DNA of 64,000 nucleotides from Acidobacteriota bacterium. Its GTDB lineage: Bacteria; Acidobacteriota; Vicinamibacteria; Vicinamibacterales; 2-12-FULL-66-21. The stretch covers positions 1 through 64,000 of the forward strand of contig QHWT01000071.1 in assembly GCA_003222675.1 (NCBI GenBank), given 5' to 3'. This document shows, in pieces, positions 12,442-42,928 of this stretch. Both the position numbers and the translations under genes were made by a program. Each line of letters opens with the position of its first letter. The stretch's first letter is position 1. The notes beneath the pieces were generated by a model, which made no database searches, had not been told where the DNA came from, and saw nothing but the letters and a program-made list of their open reading frames with translations.

Positions 12442-12538
12442 CCAGCTGCCAGCCACCAGCTGCCAGCTGGAAGAGCACGAAGCGTCGAAGAGAACACGGA
12501 TTCAGCTGGAAGCTGGCAGCTGGAAGCTGGCAGCTGAT
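12442..12538. repeat. Inverted heptamer array rpsG-fusA, CCAGCTG / AGCTGGA type
   Basis: Left arm 12442-12469: CCAGCTG, CCAGCCA, CCAGCTG, CCAGCTG. Right arm 12504-12538: AGCTGGA, AGCTGGC, AGCTGGA, AGCTGGC, AGCTGAT, then TTTT and the fusA ATG. The spacer is 34 bp with no similarity to other spacers that I can see. Confidence 0.85.
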
Positions 12539-15083: not shown

Positions 15084-15166
15084 GGTTCACGGTTCAGGGT
15101 TCACGGTGCACGGTTCCAGGTTCGGAACCCTGAACCGATGAACCGTGAACGGTGAACCGTGAACCG
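15084..15166. repeat. Inverted heptamer array rpsJ-rplC, GGTTCAC / TGAACCG type
   Basis: The array starts directly after the rpsJ TAG: GGTTCAC, GGTTCAG, GGTTCAC, GGTGCAC, GGTTCCA. The opposite arm has GGAACCC, TGAACCG, TGAACGG, TGAACCG, TGAACCG. The unit is entirely different from the AGCTGG type but the 7-bp step and two-arm layout are the same. Confidence 0.85.
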
Positions 15167-21911: not shown

Positions 21912-22096
21912 TGGCTACTACCGCGAAGATCGCAAAAGAGTCGAAGTCGCCGAAGTTCAAGATCCGGCTGCGCAACCGCTGCCGCCGATGCGGGCGCCCG
22001 CGCGCCTACATTCGCAAATTCGCGCTGTGCCGCCTCTGTTTCCGCCAGCTCGCGCTGGAGGGAGACATCGCAGGAGTGACGAAGAGCAGCTGGTGA
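21911..22096 (+). CDS. rpsZ: 30S ribosomal protein S14, zinc-binding short type
   Basis: This 61-residue S14 has the Cys4 zinc motif CRRCGRP...CRLCFRQLA, as in the short (type Z) form rather than the ~100-residue Cys-free form. S14 is in the 30S head. It overlaps the L5 stop by one base (TAATG). [14 protein letters not shown] at the C terminus is typical. Confidence 0.96.
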
Positions 22097-22098
22097 GA

Positions 22099-22187
22099 AA
22101 GCTGCCAGCCGCCAGCTGCCAGTCGCCAGCTTCGAGCTGGAGGCAACGGAGCTTCGATAGCTGGAAGCTGGAAGCTGGTAGCTGACA
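22099..22187. repeat. Inverted heptamer array rpsZ-rpsH, AGCTGG family
   Basis: Left arm AGCTGCCAGCCGCCAGCTGC with CCAGTCGCCAGCTTC; spacer of about 35 bp; right arm AGCTGGA, AGCTGGA, AGCTGGT, AGCTGAC. The rpsH ATG lies 16 bp further. Confidence 0.8.
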
Positions 22188-29077: not shown

Positions 29078-29184
29078 CAGTTACCAGTTACCGGTTTCCG
29101 GTTTCCAGTTCAAGACGATGGAAACGGAGAAGTGGGGACTGATAACGGCAACTGGCAACTGGCAACCGGCTACTGAAAACTGAT
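29078..29184. repeat. Inverted heptamer array rpsM-rpsK, CCGGTTT / AACTGGC type
   Basis: Left arm AGTTACC, AGTTACC, GGTTTCC, GGTTTCC, AGTTC. Right arm CAACTGGCAACTGGCAACCG, then CTACTGAAAACTGAT and TTTTATG of rpsK. The 7-bp step is exact in each arm; no Shine-Dalgarno site remains. Confidence 0.85.
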
Positions 29185-29663: not shown

Positions 29664-29796
29664 CAGTTGCCAGTCGCCAGTTACCAGTTACCGGTTTCCA
29701 GTAGCCAGTCAAGGCAACGGATCCGAGAGCTGGGAACCGGACACTGGTAACCGGAGACTGGTAACTGGAAACTGGAAACTGGAAGCCACAAGGATC
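29664..29796. repeat. Inverted heptamer array rpsK-rpsD, CCAGTTA / AACTGGA type
   Basis: Left arm AGTTGCC, AGTCGCC, AGTTACC, AGTTACC, GGTTTCC, AGTAGCC, AGTC, in strict heptamers. Right arm GGTAACC/GGAGACT/GGTAACT/GGAAACT/GGAAACT. The tail CACAAGGATC (29787-29796) provides AAGGA for rpsD. Confidence 0.85.
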
Positions 29797-30436: not shown

Positions 30437-30512
30437 CGCCAGCTTCCAGCCTCCAGCTTCCAGCTTTAAGAGCTGCTAGCTGGCAGCTGGTAGCTGGCAG
30501 CTGGTAGCTGGC
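30437..30512. repeat. Inverted heptamer array rpsD-rpoA, CCAGCTT / AGCTGGC type
   Basis: Left arm CCAGCTT, CCAGCCT, CCAGCTT, CCAGCTT; right arm AGCTGGC, AGCTGGT, AGCTGGC, AGCTGGT, AGCTGGC. Here about 100 bp separate the array from rpoA, unlike most loci. Confidence 0.85.
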
Positions 30513-31601: not shown

Positions 31602-31700
31602 GGGTCGGGGCGCGGGGCGCGGGATCCGGGATGCGCTGGTTCACGGAGAACCATCGGGCCCCGCACCCCGCACCCCGCACCCCGGATCCCGACAAGGATC
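31602..31700. repeat. Inverted heptamer array rpoA-rplQ, GGGGCGC / CCGCACC type, with GACAAGGATC tail
   Basis: Left arm CGGGTCGGGGCGCGGGGCGC; right arm CCCGCACCCCGCACCCCGC, ending GGATCCC and then GACAAGGATC (31691-31700), which carries the rplQ ribosome-binding site. The unit resembles the fusA-rpsJ array. Confidence 0.8.
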
Positions 31701-32339: not shown

Positions 32340-32470
32340 GTCAGCTGGCAGCTGCCAGCTATCAGCTACTAGCTGCCAGCTATTCGAAAGAGCCGAGTCG
32401 CTTGCGACTCGGCTTTTTGTTTTTAGCACAAGCTTCAACCTGGAGGCTGGAAGCTGGCCGCTGACGGCTA
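32340..32470. repeat. Inverted heptamer array with the superoperon terminator in its spacer
   Basis: The left arm, from CAGCTGGCAGCTGCCAGC to about 32382 (CAGCTAT, CAGCTAC, TAGCTGC, CAGCTAT), starts at the rplQ stop. The right arm at 32435-32470 has CTTCAACCTGGAGGCTGG and AAGCTGGCCGCTGAC. The 50-bp spacer contains the intrinsic terminator. Confidence 0.75.
32391..32422 (+). terminator. Intrinsic terminator of the ribosomal superoperon
   Basis: AGCCGAGTCGC-TTGC-GACTCGGCT (32391-32413) is a near-perfect hairpin followed by TTTTGTTTTTAG. Position after rplQ and convergent to the minus-strand EF-G gene fits the end of the operon. Confidence 0.93.
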
Positions 32471-32481
32471 TCTCCGGCCGC

Positions 32482-34578
32482 TCATACTTCTTCGGCGGCC
32501 TCAGCCCCCCGCTCAGCCTTCGACGCGGCGATGATCTTGCTGTGGAGGTGGGGCGGCACTTCCTCGTAGTGCGAGAACTCCATGTGATACGAGCCGCGTC
32601 CACCGGTGGCCGACGTGAGGTGCTGCTCGTAGGTCAGCATCTCCGCCATCGGCACCTTCGCGCGAATGATCGTCGACGCGCCGCGCGTATCCATCCCGCC
32701 GATGCGACCGCGGCGGCTGTTCAGATCGCCCATCAGGTCTCCCGCGAAATCGCTCGGCGCGTACACCTCGACGTTCATCACCGGCTCCAGCAGCGTCGGA
32801 CGCGCGCGCGACATGCCGTCCTTGAACGCGAGGGAGCCAGCCATTTTGAACGACAGCTCGTTGGAGTCGACCGCGTGGAACGATCCGTCGAACACCGTTG
32901 CGCGGAAATCCACCATGGGATAGCCCGCGAGGAACCCGCGCATGCGCGAGTCCTGGATCCCCTTCTCGATAGCCGGCACGAACTGACGCGGGATCGCGCC
33001 GCCGAAGATGTCGTTCGCGAACTCGAAATCGGCGCCGCGCGGCAGCGGCTCGAACTTCACCTTGCAGTCGCCGAACTGACCGTGGCCGCCGGTCTGCTTC
33101 TTGTGGCGCCCGTGCGCCTCGACCGACGCGGTGATCGTCTCGCGGTAGGGGATGCGCGGTAGCTTGAGCGTCACCTCGACGCCGAACCGACGCTTCAACT
33201 TGGCGACCGTCACCTCGATGTGTGACTGGCCCTGGCCGGCGAGCAGCAGCTCTTTGGTCTGCGCGTCGCGGTTGTAGCTGATCGTCGGATCCTCTTCCTG
33301 CAGCCGATGGAGCGCTGTGCTGATCTTGTCTTCGTCGCCGCGGCTCTTCGGCTCAATCGCGTAGGAGATCACCGGCTCGGGAAATTTGATCGGCGGGAGG
33401 CCCGCTCGTGCCTTGCTGTCGCCGATCATGTCGCTCGTCAACGTCTCCTTTAATTTGGCGACCGCACCGAGGTCCCCCGCGCGGAGCTCCGGCACGTTCG
33501 TCTGCGTTTTTCCCTGCAGCAGCACGAGATGGCCGAGCCGCTCCGGCACGTCCTTGGAGAGGTTGTGCACCGTCGAGTCAGCCTTCAGCGCGCCCGAGAG
33601 CACGCGGAACATCGTGATGCGTCCGGCGAACGGATCCGCGACCGTCTTCCACACGAACGCCGAGGTCGCGCCCGATTCCTCGGTCGGCACTTCCACCTCT
33701 TCGCCGTCCGCCTTGCGCGCCTTCAACGGCCGTTCGAGCGGCGAGGGGACATACGTGACGACGGCATCGAGGATCGGCGGCATGCCGATGTTGGCCCCTG
33801 CGGACGCGCACAGCACCGGGAAGAGACGTCCGCCGGCGATGCCGCGTTTGAGCCCCGCGCCGAGCTCCTCCTCGGTCAACGTGCCGGCATCGAAGAACTT
33901 CTCCATCAGCGCATCGTCGGCTTCGGCGACCATCTCGATGAGCGCTTCGCGCGCGGTCCCCGCGGCGGACGACAGATCGGCAGGCACGTCCCCCTCCGTC
34001 GCTTTTCCGCTGGCGTCAGCGGCAAACGTCCAGGCGCGCATCGTCACGAGGTTGATGATGCCCTTGAAGTTCTTTTCTTCTCCGACAGGGAGCTGAATTG
34101 GAATGACGGTGCGGCCGAACACCGTGCGCAGCGACTCGAGCGATCGATCGAGGCTGGCGCGCTCGCGATCGAACCGGTTCAGCACGATCAGCCGCGGGAC
34201 GCCGAGCTCCGTCGCGACCTCCCACACCTTCTCGGTCGATACCTCCACGCCGGAAACCGCGTCGACGACCACGAGCGCCGCGTCAGCGACGCGGAGCGCG
34301 GCGCGCGCGTCGCTCAGGAAGTTCGCCATCCCGGGCGTGTCGATAAAATTGATCTTGTGCTTGTTCCACTCTGCGTAGGCGAGGCTTGCGGAGAGCGTGT
34401 GCTTGCGGGCGATTTCTTCGTCGTCGTAGTCCGTGACCGTGCTGCCCTCGTCGACGCGACCGAGGCGGTTGACCGCCCCTGCATCGAAGAGCAGGGCGGA
34501 CACGAGCTGCGTCTTGCCAGAACCGGAGTGGCCGACGAGGGCCACGTTCCGGATGCTGGCGGCATCATAGACCTTCAT
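32482..34578 (-). CDS. EF-G-like GTPase, divergent second copy
   Basis: The 698-residue protein has the full EF-G domain set but differs from FusA at 12543-14663. G1 is GHSGSGKT, G3 DTPG, and G4 NRFD instead of NKMD. Domain IV reads TGGHGQFGDCKV and the C-terminal part TSATGGRGSYHMEFSHYEEVP. It resembles the EF-G2-like group, whose members often lack robust translocase activity and are proposed to act in ribosome recycling or stress. ATG at 34578 has GGAGGG upstream on its strand. It is downstream of the four-helix-bundle element. Confidence 0.9.
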   Translation of the reverse strand: MKVYDAASIRNVALVGHSGSGKTQLVSALLFDAGAVNRLGRVDEGSTVTDYDDEEIARKHTLSASLAYAEWNKHKINFIDTPGMANFLSDARAALRVADAALVVVDAVSGVEVSTEKVWEVATELGVPRLIVLNRFDRERASLDRSLESLRTVFGRTVIPIQLPVGEEKNFKGIINLVTMRAWTFAADASGKATEGDVPADLSSAAGTAREALIEMVAEADDALMEKFFDAGTLTEEELGAGLKRGIAGGRLFPVLCASAGANIGMPPILDAVVTYVPSPLERPLKARKADGEEVEVPTEESGATSAFVWKTVADPFAGRITMFRVLSGALKADSTVHNLSKDVPERLGHLVLLQGKTQTNVPELRAGDLGAVAKLKETLTSDMIGDSKARAGLPPIKFPEPVISYAIEPKSRGDEDKISTALHRLQEEDPTISYNRDAQTKELLLAGQGQSHIEVTVAKLKRRFGVEVTLKLPRIPYRETITASVEAHGRHKKQTGGHGQFGDCKVKFEPLPRGADFEFANDIFGGAIPRQFVPAIEKGIQDSRMRGFLAGYPMVDFRATVFDGSFHAVDSNELSFKMAGSLAFKDGMSRARPTLLEPVMNVEVYAPSDFAGDLMGDLNSRRGRIGGMDTRGASTIIRAKVPMAEMLTYEQHLTSATGGRGSYHMEFSHYEEVPPHLHSKIIAASKAERGAEAAEEV

Positions 34579-34604: not shown

Positions 34605-35110
34605 CTAGCTGTCAGCTTCCAGCCGCCAGCTGCCAGCCTTTGATGACCGCGATTACGTCGTCATGCTCTGGATCAGGCCGACCAACATGCGCCTGACCTC
34701 TTCGACTTGGCCCGTCAGCCGCGTGTGCAGGGCAACGGGCAAGAACTTGAGGTCCCGCGCAAGGAGCAAATCATACTCAAGTTCGTTACAGGAACCCAAC
34801 GAGTGCCAGAGGAACCGCCGGAAGTCCGGATCCGAGCCCCTTCCCCTTCCTTCGGCGATATTGGATGCTATCGAAATCGCCGCTCGGAGCAATTGATCCC
34901 GTAACGGCCACCCCTCAGGCTTCTGTAGGTATGCAGAAACGTCGTACGACGAAAGCGCAAGTTTGTGCGCTTTCTGCCACACCTGCAGCTTTCTATAGTC
35001 CTGCATTGGGACCTCCTTAGCGAGTCATCCCGCAATGCAACTTTTTTGCTCAGCTGAGAGAAGCTGGGAGCTGGGAGCTGGCAGCTGGGAACTGGCAGCT
35101 GGCAGCTTAC
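34605..35110 (-). mobile_element. Candidate element: inverted heptamer arms flanking a four-helix-bundle gene
   Basis: The low-coordinate arm 34605-34639 steps in heptamers CTAGCTG, TCAGCTT, CCAGCCG, CCAGCTG, CCAGCCT. The high-coordinate arm 35062-35110 has AGCTGGG, AGCTGGG, AGCTGGC, AGCTGGG, AACTGGC, AGCTGGC, AGCTTAC, and its last unit overlaps the stop of the neighbouring permease. Read on the minus strand this is CCAGCT arm, gene, AGCTGG arm ending AGCTGAC, then the EF-G gene: the same polarity and ends as the gene-free arrays. That it is mobile is inference; no target-site duplication is obvious. Confidence 0.55.
34653..35006 (-). CDS. Four-helix-bundle protein (23S rRNA intervening-sequence / S23 type)
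   Basis: The 117-residue protein MQDYRKLQVWQKAHKLALSSYDVS...RDQLLRAAISIASNIAEGRGRGSDPDFRRFLWHSLGSCNELEYDLLLARDL matches the four-helix-bundle family first found inside 23S rRNA intervening sequences. That family is structurally related to the Avd accessory protein of diversity-generating retroelements. The WQKAH, SNIAEG and ELEYDLLLA blocks are the family hallmarks. Family members have basic surfaces and likely bind nucleic acid, but no enzymatic activity is known. AAGGAGGT lies just before the ATG. No 23S rRNA is present; the gene instead sits between two inverted heptamer arms. Confidence 0.9.
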   Translation of the reverse strand: MQDYRKLQVWQKAHKLALSSYDVSAYLQKPEGWPLRDQLLRAAISIASNIAEGRGRGSDPDFRRFLWHSLGSCNELEYDLLLARDLKFLPVALHTRLTGQVEEVRRMLVGLIQSMTT

Positions 35111-36414
35111 TCGTATCTCAATGCTTCAATCGGATCCAGCCGCGACGCTTTGAAGGCGGGGAACAACCCGAAGAAGATGCCGACGCTCGCGGAGAATCCG
35201 ATTCCGATAGCGAACGACCACCACGGCAGCGACACGGGGAACCCTGTGAATGCATGCACAGACAGGCCGATGCCGCTGCCGAGCGCGATCCCGAGCAGGC
35301 CGCCGAGGGACGTGAGGAACACGGCCTCGACGAGGAACTGCCAGAGGATCTCGCGGCGGCGCGCGCCGAGCGCCTTGCGCACGCCAATCTCGCGCGTGCG
35401 TTCGGTCACCGAGATCATCATGATGGCCATCACGCCGATGCCGCCGACCATCAGCGCGATTGACGAGATGACGACGAGTCCGAGGAACGTCGCGCGGCTG
35501 ATCTGATCCCACACCTTCAGCACGGCGTCCTGCGTGGCCAGGTCGAAGTCGTTCGGCTGATCCAGCTTCAGATTGTGGCGGATGCGCATGATCGCCTCCA
35601 CCTCCGCCATCGCTGCATCGCGCGCGCCTTCGCGAGGGACCACGGCAATCATCGCCGTTCGGAACACCGCGGGATTGAAATTGCTCGCGGTGATTTTCGC
35701 CGATCCCTTGAGGACCTTGCCGAACAGCTTCTCGTGGGTGCCATACGGGATGATCACGAAATCGTCCACGCCGGTCTGGAATCCCCCGGGGCTGGGCCGT
35801 GGGCCCAGCACGCCGATCACCGTGAAGGGCGTCGCGCCGATGCGCACGGTCTTCCCGATCGGATCGATGTTGGGGAACAGCGACTTCCACGGCATGTTGC
35901 CGAGCAGCACGACCTGGCGTCGGTGCTCGACTTCCGCCGAGATGAACAGGCGCCCGTACTCCAGCTTCGCGAAGTTCACGGCGGCCCAGTTCTCGGTCGC
36001 GCCGAGAATCGCGAGCTGCTTCGTCCTCTCGTGCCCGTAGTAAATCCGCGACTGGTTGAACCCCGTCGCGCCCAGCCACACGTCGACGATTGCGACCGAC
36101 GGGCACTCGCGCTCGATGGCGCGCGCGTCTTCCATCGTCAGGTTCGGACGCCGGGCGACTTCGAGAAAGCTCTTGCCCGAGCCGAAGCTGAGGGCGCCCC
36201 ACTTCTGCACCATAAGGGTGTTTGGCCCCAGCTGCCTGAACAAGTCGCGCAAGGACTGGTCGAAGCCGCGAATGAGCGACGTCATCCCCACGATCGACGT
36301 GATGCCGATGACGACGCCGAGGACCGTCAGCGCCGAGCGCATCTTGCTCGCGCGCAGCGTATCGAAGGACATGACGACGATCTCGGAGAGCAGGCCCGTG
36401 CGGACGGTCTTCAT
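35107..36414 (-). CDS. MacB/FtsX-like ABC transporter permease (first paralogue)
   Basis: The 435-residue protein has one N-terminal helix (MRSALTVLGVVIGITSIVGM), a large periplasmic MacB_PCD domain and three C-terminal helices with the FtsX motif MMISVTERTREIGVRKALGARRREILWQFLVEA. Such permeases act as mechanotransmitters with an adaptor and an outer-membrane channel to expel macrolides, peptides or lipoproteins. It follows its paralogue by 1 bp. No ATPase is encoded in this window. The stop lies inside a heptamer unit of the four-helix-bundle element. Confidence 0.92.
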   Translation of the reverse strand: MKTVRTGLLSEIVVMSFDTLRASKMRSALTVLGVVIGITSIVGMTSLIRGFDQSLRDLFRQLGPNTLMVQKWGALSFGSGKSFLEVARRPNLTMEDARAIERECPSVAIVDVWLGATGFNQSRIYYGHERTKQLAILGATENWAAVNFAKLEYGRLFISAEVEHRRQVVLLGNMPWKSLFPNIDPIGKTVRIGATPFTVIGVLGPRPSPGGFQTGVDDFVIIPYGTHEKLFGKVLKGSAKITASNFNPAVFRTAMIAVVPREGARDAAMAEVEAIMRIRHNLKLDQPNDFDLATQDAVLKVWDQISRATFLGLVVISSIALMVGGIGVMAIMMISVTERTREIGVRKALGARRREILWQFLVEAVFLTSLGGLLGIALGSGIGLSVHAFTGFPVSLPWWSFAIGIGFSASVGIFFGLFPAFKASRLDPIEALRYE

Positions 36415-42839: not shown

Positions 42840-42928
42840 GTCAGCCACCAGCCGCCAGCCACCAGCAGCAAGCTGGAAGCTAGTAGCTGGAAGCTGGAAG
42901 CTGGAAGCTGGTAGCTGGTAGCTAACGA
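42840..42928. repeat. Inverted heptamer array pilB-pilT, AGCTGG family
   Basis: Left arm CAGCCACCAGCCGCCAGCC; right arm AGCTGGAAGCTAGTAGCTGG and further AGCTGGA/AGCTGGT units ending AGCTAAC. The pattern is the same as in the ribosomal superoperon. Confidence 0.8.

Follow-up and report, generated by a model that had tools for sequence, protein, structure and literature searches.

The window, a stretch of 64,000 nucleotides from an Acidobacteriota genome, carries at 34653..35006 on the minus strand a gene for a four-helix-bundle protein of 117 aa. Profile searches assign this ORF to PF05635 (E 1.6e-31) and TIGR02436 (E 8e-31), and a structure model gives the protein an Avd-like fold. Read along the coding strand, the upstream neighbour is a MacB/FtsX-type permease gene (35107..36414, minus strand), whose context is orthologous in the family. 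Its stop codon (35107-35109) is followed immediately by an arm of AGCTSCC-type heptamers (35062..35107, minus strand; CCAGCT-type when read from 35107 down to 35062) and then by the PF05635 gene. A second arm, AGCTGG-type and composed of AGCTGGC/AGCTGAC heptamers (34607..34637, minus strand, read from 34637 downwards), lies downstream of the gene, just ahead of the ribosome binding site of an EF-G paralogue (32482..34578, minus strand, start at 34578). The heptamers of the arms are mixed (AGCTGGN, AACTGGN and AGCTGAC), and the arms form an inverted pair of 31 nt, 84% complementary, with a spacing of 439 nt. When the reverse complement of the left flank is aligned to the right flank, the locus scores 44, the 95% point for flanks swapped between loci being 23. 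These results bear out the sequence-only reading, which had placed inverted AGCTGG-family heptamers on both sides of the gene, in the order stop, CCAGCT arm, gene, AGCTGG arm, next gene start; its further statement that the second arm ends in AGCTGAC needs a small correction, since the outer end on the EF-G side reads AGCTGACAGCTAGC.

The motif is abundant beyond the arms: CCAGCT occurs 103 times in the window (27 expected), and three successive AGCTGGN units occur 100 times in the genome, the reversed pattern never. The window element combines the terminal inverted repeats by which IS elements and MITEs are recognised, a PF05635-type ORF between such repeats, as in 23S rRNA IVSs, and tandem 7-nt units in many copies, as in SSRs and STRRs. 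It does not lie inside a 23S rRNA gene; it is located between the permease and EF-G genes, and no Rfam match was obtained anywhere in the window. Profile searches of the element matched PF05635 and no transposase domain, PADLOC recognised no known defence system, and one query against a phage collection returned zero matches.

The protein model (pLDDT 96) matches two relatives of solved structure, 2gsc (XCC0516 of Xanthomonas) and 2rld. Avd is a more distant match (4dwl, TM 0.77), also as part of the ribonucleoprotein of a diversity-generating retroelement (8ub7, TM 0.75). There is in addition a weak sequence match to the PHROG Avd profile (E 2.8e-5). The structures 2gsc and 2rld each contain five chains; the window protein was compared with Avd as a protomer model. 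Residues Q38, S45, A51, E52, G53, S72 and E75 are invariant. No nuclease motif was recognised in the PF05635 protein. Its family is not known to have a catalytic domain, and something other than this protein may therefore be the mover.

The row of permease, element and EF-G is orthologous across the family. A permease orthologue was found in eight other family genomes, and in seven of these a PF05635 gene, intact or decayed, adjoins it. Both arms are present at the orthologous locus in G000, G001, G002, G005, G006 and G010, and their heptamer varies by species, on both sides in parallel (AGCTGCC/GGCAGCT, AGCTTCC/GGAAGCT, AGCTGTC/AGCTGAC). The gene itself is shortened in G002 and G003, carries a frameshift in G010 and is missing from G008; dN/dS among the intact orthologues is 0.09-0.38. 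The orthologous row and the decayed copies in relatives led us to reject a recent insertion of the window copy, which is best described, from these comparisons, as an old, vertically inherited resident that is useful or selfish, and dispensable.

Inverted heptamer arms at PF05635 loci

A search with AGCTGG alone made one of the eight PF05635 gene copies of this genome look flanked and the other seven naked. This picture was overturned by a scan for any array of period 7: such arrays adjoin the majority of PF05635 genes both in this genome and in its family, and each locus has its own heptamer, usually reverse-complementary between its two sides (for example ACGGTTC/GAACCGT at L005, AGGTTCT/AGAACCT at L006 and AAGGGAC/GTCCCTT at L053). 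In 464 kb around PF05635 genes there are 80 period-7 arrays, compared with 0-24 for the other periods from 4 to 15. An array lies within 400 bp at 57% of PF05635 gene flanks and at 3.9% of random flanks. The enrichment over other genes that the sequence-only reading had proposed to test was found: 25/44 PF05635 flanks have an array versus 37/380 flanks of other long ORFs (9.7%, p 2e-12), and arrays stand on both flanks of 9/22 PF05635 genes versus 5/190 other ORFs.

The pairing of the two flanks extends far beyond this family. Across 137 PF05635 loci from many phyla, the median flank score was 36, whereas swapping the partners gave 17 and sham genes gave 18; of the own-family loci, 81% scored above the 95% point for swapping, as did 97% of loci from elsewhere in the phylum and 71% of other bacterial loci. 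The inverted flanks often consist of 7-nt units, with a heptamer particular to each locus. A replication set of 37 further loci, from a class-level gammaproteobacterial draw around Thiohalocapsa plus six other genomes, gave a median of 34 versus 18. Clear inverted flanks are missing at about a quarter of PF05635 loci. The swapped-partner, sham-gene, other-ORF and other-period controls together reject a chance origin of the flanks. No 23S motif pairs were found in the scanned PF05635 loci.

The arms also have a direction and an internal phase. In gene orientation, CT is contained in 71% of downstream heptamers and 38% of upstream ones. Hairpin mismatches sit on one phase in seven (0.65 versus 0.05-0.13), and array variation is likewise concentrated on one phase of seven; the test aligned phases on the worst one, and the simulated null for arrays was clearly flatter. 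This concentration suggests that each unit of the arms pairs over about 6 bp and leaves one mismatch, the pairing that also appears in the predicted folds of the window hairpins.

Individual loci show how varied the arms can be. After the PF05635 gene of Grimontia hollisae (L181), a near-perfect array of the heptamer ACCCAGG extends for 268 bp on a single side. Among Acidobacteriota and Planctomycetota, genes that are 40-50% identical (L128, L147, L176 and others) have inverted arms of different heptamers, which indicates a fast turnover of arm sequence.

Gene-free hairpins and resident genes

Arrays of the same kind occur without a gene at many places in the window. Inverted AGCTGG arrays lie at 12442..12536, AGCTGG arrays in both orientations at 22045..22186 and an AAGCTGG array at 42842..42923 (plus strand). 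Two further sites have the heptamers of other resident genes: an inverted AACCGTG-type pair at 15084..15166 (the heptamer of locus L005) and an ACCCCGC-type array at 31659..31691 (plus strand; the type of resident gene L003), which is missing in G009. Closer to the window gene are two AACTGG-type hairpins, S1 (29078..29170) and S2 (29664..29784), and an AGCTGG-type hairpin, S3 (30439..30511). The gap orthologous to S1 is 1-3 nt in G005 and G007; that of S2 is 2 nt in G010 and holds other repeats in G002 and G007; that of S3 is near-empty in G010 and G004 and contains an ACGTGCG type in G006. At five window sites in all, relatives have either nothing in the orthologous gap (0-5 nt in the clearest cases) or hairpins of another heptamer, and on this comparison the hairpins near the window gene are younger than the gene copy itself.

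The window as a whole is a hot spot, with 22 period-7 arrays in 64 kb as against about 0.11 per kb in the remaining sampled genome (3-fold). In a period scan of G000, period-14 arrays and a few of periods 8 and 15 were seen alongside those of period 7; they are probably degenerate heptamers.

At a further site, S5 (32340..32460, in the region 32340-32480), AGCTGG-type arms stand on both sides of a terminator-like hairpin (GAGCCGAGTCGCTTGCGACTCGGCTTTTT). G001 and G005 have at this site a terminator-like hairpin of their own between arms of a different heptamer, GATTGGC/GCCAATC. Such a pattern is not easily accounted for by insertion alone, and it suggests that arms may also lengthen at their site or be exchanged there.

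We then compared array heptamers with those of the genes. Among PF05635 loci, heptamer similarity rises with protein identity (r 0.21; the largest value in 500 permutations was 0.10). A 984-kb sample of this genome contained 113 gene-free arrays. Of these, 65% are within one mismatch of a heptamer from seven resident genes, and 23% match exactly; control heptamer sets from other family, phylum and bacterial loci gave means of 26%, 15% and 9% within one mismatch, and 5%, 0.8% and 0.3% exactly. For 25-35% of the gene-free arrays there was no such match to a resident gene. When twelve genomes of the family were scanned in full, GAACCGT arrays turned up in G000 (305 matches) and G002 (32) and in none of the ten others; genes with GAACCGT arms (L005, L058) were found in exactly these two. 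The arm type thus tracks the gene, a relationship on which the earlier reading depended.

The AGCT type behaves similarly, with matches to the reversed pattern given in brackets as a control. Genomes with an intact AGCT-type gene have 197 (11), 283 (57), 123 (2) and 147 (4) matches, and those with a decayed gene that keeps both arms have 63 (0) and 113 (2). Where the gene is degraded or absent, the numbers are 7 (0), 5 (2), 0 (1), 0 (1) and 43 (70). The exception is G011, with 118 (0) matches and no PF05635 match in an assembly that is 88% complete. AGCT arrays are therefore abundant in 6/6 genomes with an intact or recently decayed gene versus 1/6 others. Since matches within one array can overlap and only a small family was scanned, the results linking genes and arrays are associations: gene-free hairpins are abundant where a matching gene is present, and from this co-occurrence a causal role of the gene may be inferred. 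One such role would be movement or maintenance of the arrays by the protein. A low-copy gene accompanied by many gene-free hairpins of its own type is a trait shared with REP/RAYT systems, and the comparison with these in the sequence-only reading fits in that one gene copy goes with many gene-free ones.

Mobility in cyanobacterial plasmids

The empty sites that the sequence-only reading had proposed to look for exist in Nostoc plasmids. Cyanobacterial plasmids, for which close relatives are numerous, gave four sites at which a gene-bearing element can be set against an empty counterpart. Site A is filled in L212 and L216, empty in L213, L214 and L226, and occupied by a gene-free hairpin in L215. 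Site B is filled in L209 and empty in L217; site C1 is filled in L218, L220 and L222 and empty in L210, L219, L221 and L223; site C2 is filled in L210 and empty in the others. At sites A (L212/L216) and C1 (L218/L220/L222) the elements are 98-99% identical and their flanks 83-94%, a homing-like pattern. Because the elements are more alike than their flanks, they presumably arrived after the flanks had diverged, either site-specifically or by recombination.

Gene-free hairpins have moved as well. A 182-bp hairpin without a gene, built of the same heptamers (GGAGTCA/TGACTCC), breaks the PF05635 gene of L222; the arms of this hairpin equal those of a gene-bearing Trichormus element. This hairpin family occupies 98 places in 43 records, and nine copies that we compared have identical sharp ends in unrelated flanks. 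GATAA is found nearly always at one end and, in L222, was already in the target beforehand. Another copy splits the annotated rarA in two on plasmid1 of Calothrix brevissima NIES-22 (L320). No consistent target duplication was found in the plasmid filled and empty sites or in the nine 182-bp copies. Thus, the elements are mobile in cyanobacterial plasmids, and they move without target duplication. On another plasmid, pANA02 of Anabaena sp. 90 (L211), a PF05635 element with an ACAGGTG array of about 260 bp lies in a type I-D CRISPR locus, with cas6 on one side and cas4 on the other.

The gene-bearing form behaves differently from the gene-free one. Near-identical gene-bearing plasmid elements occur at the same site only, and gene-bearing copies within each of three genomes (G152, G126, G020) are less than 76% identical, so that recent intragenomic copying of this form was not seen in these genomes. 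Homologous recombination may therefore spread the gene-bearing form, and the strong divergence of its copies within a genome suggests that only the gene-free form multiplies. The term autonomous element, used in the sequence-only reading, is for this reason less apt than master locus.

A candidate master-and-satellite system and its known counterparts

We favour a model, to which we give a probability of roughly two in three, in which the gene belongs with its arms to a single genetic unit. This unit would be the master copy of a heptamer-hairpin element in a master-and-satellite system that resembles RAYT/REPIN and uses an unrelated protein. The model is preferred because only the gene-free form appears to multiply. 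It takes the architecture, type matching, presence or absence and ends as observed, and proposes how binding, dependence on the protein and the chemistry of movement might work. The arms, runs of 7-nt units, are predicted to pair with each other in the pattern described above. The Avd-like four-helix bundle, to judge from its fold and the matching of gene and heptamer, probably binds an arm as RNA or single-stranded DNA and would be the sequence-reading partner, and gene-free hairpins with the same heptamer would be satellites of the master copy. Cutting and joining would probably fall to a host or borrowed enzyme, because the PF05635 family has no recognised nuclease or transposase motif. The gene-bearing copy would persist at low copy number by vertical inheritance in the family, enter plasmids laterally and decay in some lineages.

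Movement as single-stranded DNA, driven by a Y1 (HUH) transposase borrowed from IS200/IS605 or from RAYT relatives, with the four-helix-bundle protein a mere chaperone or regulator, is consistent with the lack of target duplication, the near-constant pre-existing GATAA at one end of the 182-bp hairpin and hairpin ends like those of IS200/IS605. Y1_Tnp is also commoner in genomes with PF05635 (57/76 versus 38/73 without, p 0.004). Nineteen of the 76 PF05635 genomes, however, have no detectable Y1_Tnp, including G141 and G121 with eight gene copies each, and no Y1 or reverse transcriptase gene lies inside the elements examined; we consider this route unlikely, if still a serious contender. G022 (seven copies) and G141 have neither a reverse transcriptase nor Y1_Tnp, and with many PF05635 genomes lacking one or the other, an obligatory partner of either kind is rejected as a general rule.

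Purifying selection on the window orthologues, the operon-like position between same-strand genes and the placing of the arms right after a stop codon and ahead of a ribosome binding site would all suit a cellular regulatory module, in which the protein, bound to the hairpin of its own transcript and of others, adjusts operon expression or mRNA ends, and dispersal is old and passive. Such a module is distinctly improbable, as several relatives have a deleted or frameshifted gene or none at all, arrays vary among them in presence and type, and plasmid insertions interrupt genes. Still more doubtful is that the arrays are ordinary simple-sequence repeats, made in place by replication slippage and hairpin-templated copying and tolerated or attracted by the gene. 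Array lengths do vary, different heptamers surround the resident terminator at S5 in different relatives, and heptamers are a common bacterial repeat length (PMC4679880, PMC4692102); yet slippage would not lead one to expect matches to resident gene arms far above controls, a GAACCGT type confined to the two genomes having that gene type, precise filled and empty sites, a dispersed family with fixed ends, or both arms of a locus switching type together. Movement through RNA, the Avd-like protein delivering the RNA of the hairpin to a reverse transcriptase provided in trans, in the way Avd does in diversity-generating retroelements, is just as doubtful: for all the Avd fold, the PHROG match and the higher frequency of RVT_1 in PF05635 genomes (34/76 versus 16/73 without, p 0.003), 42/76 have no detectable RVT_1, including G152 with 17 copies, and the elements carry no reverse transcriptase.

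Under the master-and-satellite model, the gene and the repeats together have the look of a single family of selfish, mobile DNA that had not been recognised before. A broader proposal seems to us evenly poised: that PF05635 genes are the masters of a bacteria-wide class of mobile elements without transposase, each Avd-like variant reading its own 7-nt arm code and spreading matching gene-free hairpins, that most bacterial heptamer repeats originated in this way, and that the 23S rRNA IVS is a special case. Two old puzzles meet here, the 7-nt tandem repeats that fill many genomes and the role of the "four helix bundle / 23S rRNA intervening sequence" protein. If they belong to one system, many phyla harbour an overlooked class of mobile DNA in which no transposase can be recognised, and this would offer a natural parallel for studying how Avd was recruited to retroelements. 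The parts are tractable: one small soluble protein with structurally solved relatives, and short hairpins with a type-specific, readable code.

Cyanobacterial STRRs are comparable intergenic heptamer repeats. Other published examples include the intergenic GGGAATC heptamers of Xanthomonas, with about 70 convergent inverted pairs, and the GGGGA(C/T)T repeats of Nostoc, both reported as not generally associated with mobile elements (PMC4692102), and the TAACTGA repeats of Beggiatoaceae and others, for which no transfer mechanism was evident (PMC4679880). They share with our arrays the intergenic 7-nt units and, in Xanthomonas, the inverted pairs; no gene was linked to them, whereas here heptamer types are borne as arms by a gene, and we found PF05635 genes armed with AACTGAT (L132) and GGGAATA (L303). 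A search of the open-access literature, with preprints and most subscription journals outside its scope, found no paper joining gene and heptamers.

RAYT/REP/REPIN systems likewise have few gene copies and many short, matching, largely intergenic gene-free hairpins (PMC3116915, PMC3733652), but their protein is a Y1 transposase and not an Avd-like four-helix bundle, and the repeats here are period-7 arrays. Bacterial MITEs are also short gene-free elements with inverted ends and arms common to a gene-bearing relative; here that relative has no transposase, and there is no target-site duplication. The likeness of PF05635 to Avd was known already (PMC10053308). In contrast to diversity-generating retroelements, whose Avd the window protein resembles in fold and weakly in sequence, no reverse transcriptase lies within or adjoining the window element, which is on contig C60 while the genome's only RVT_1 match is on C55, and many PF05635 hosts have no RVT_1. 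The 23S rRNA IVS, for example of Coxiella, has an S23p-family protein, terminal inverted repeats and a long hairpin, is suspected to be mobile and has an ORF that decays (PMC4990558). The window element is a similarly short element with the same protein family and hairpin-forming terminal inverted repeats; it differs in lying outside rRNA, in having arms of 7-nt units and in having gene-free derivatives of the same heptamer elsewhere in the genome. We group it with the 23S rRNA IVS and put the odds that it merits a separate class at even.
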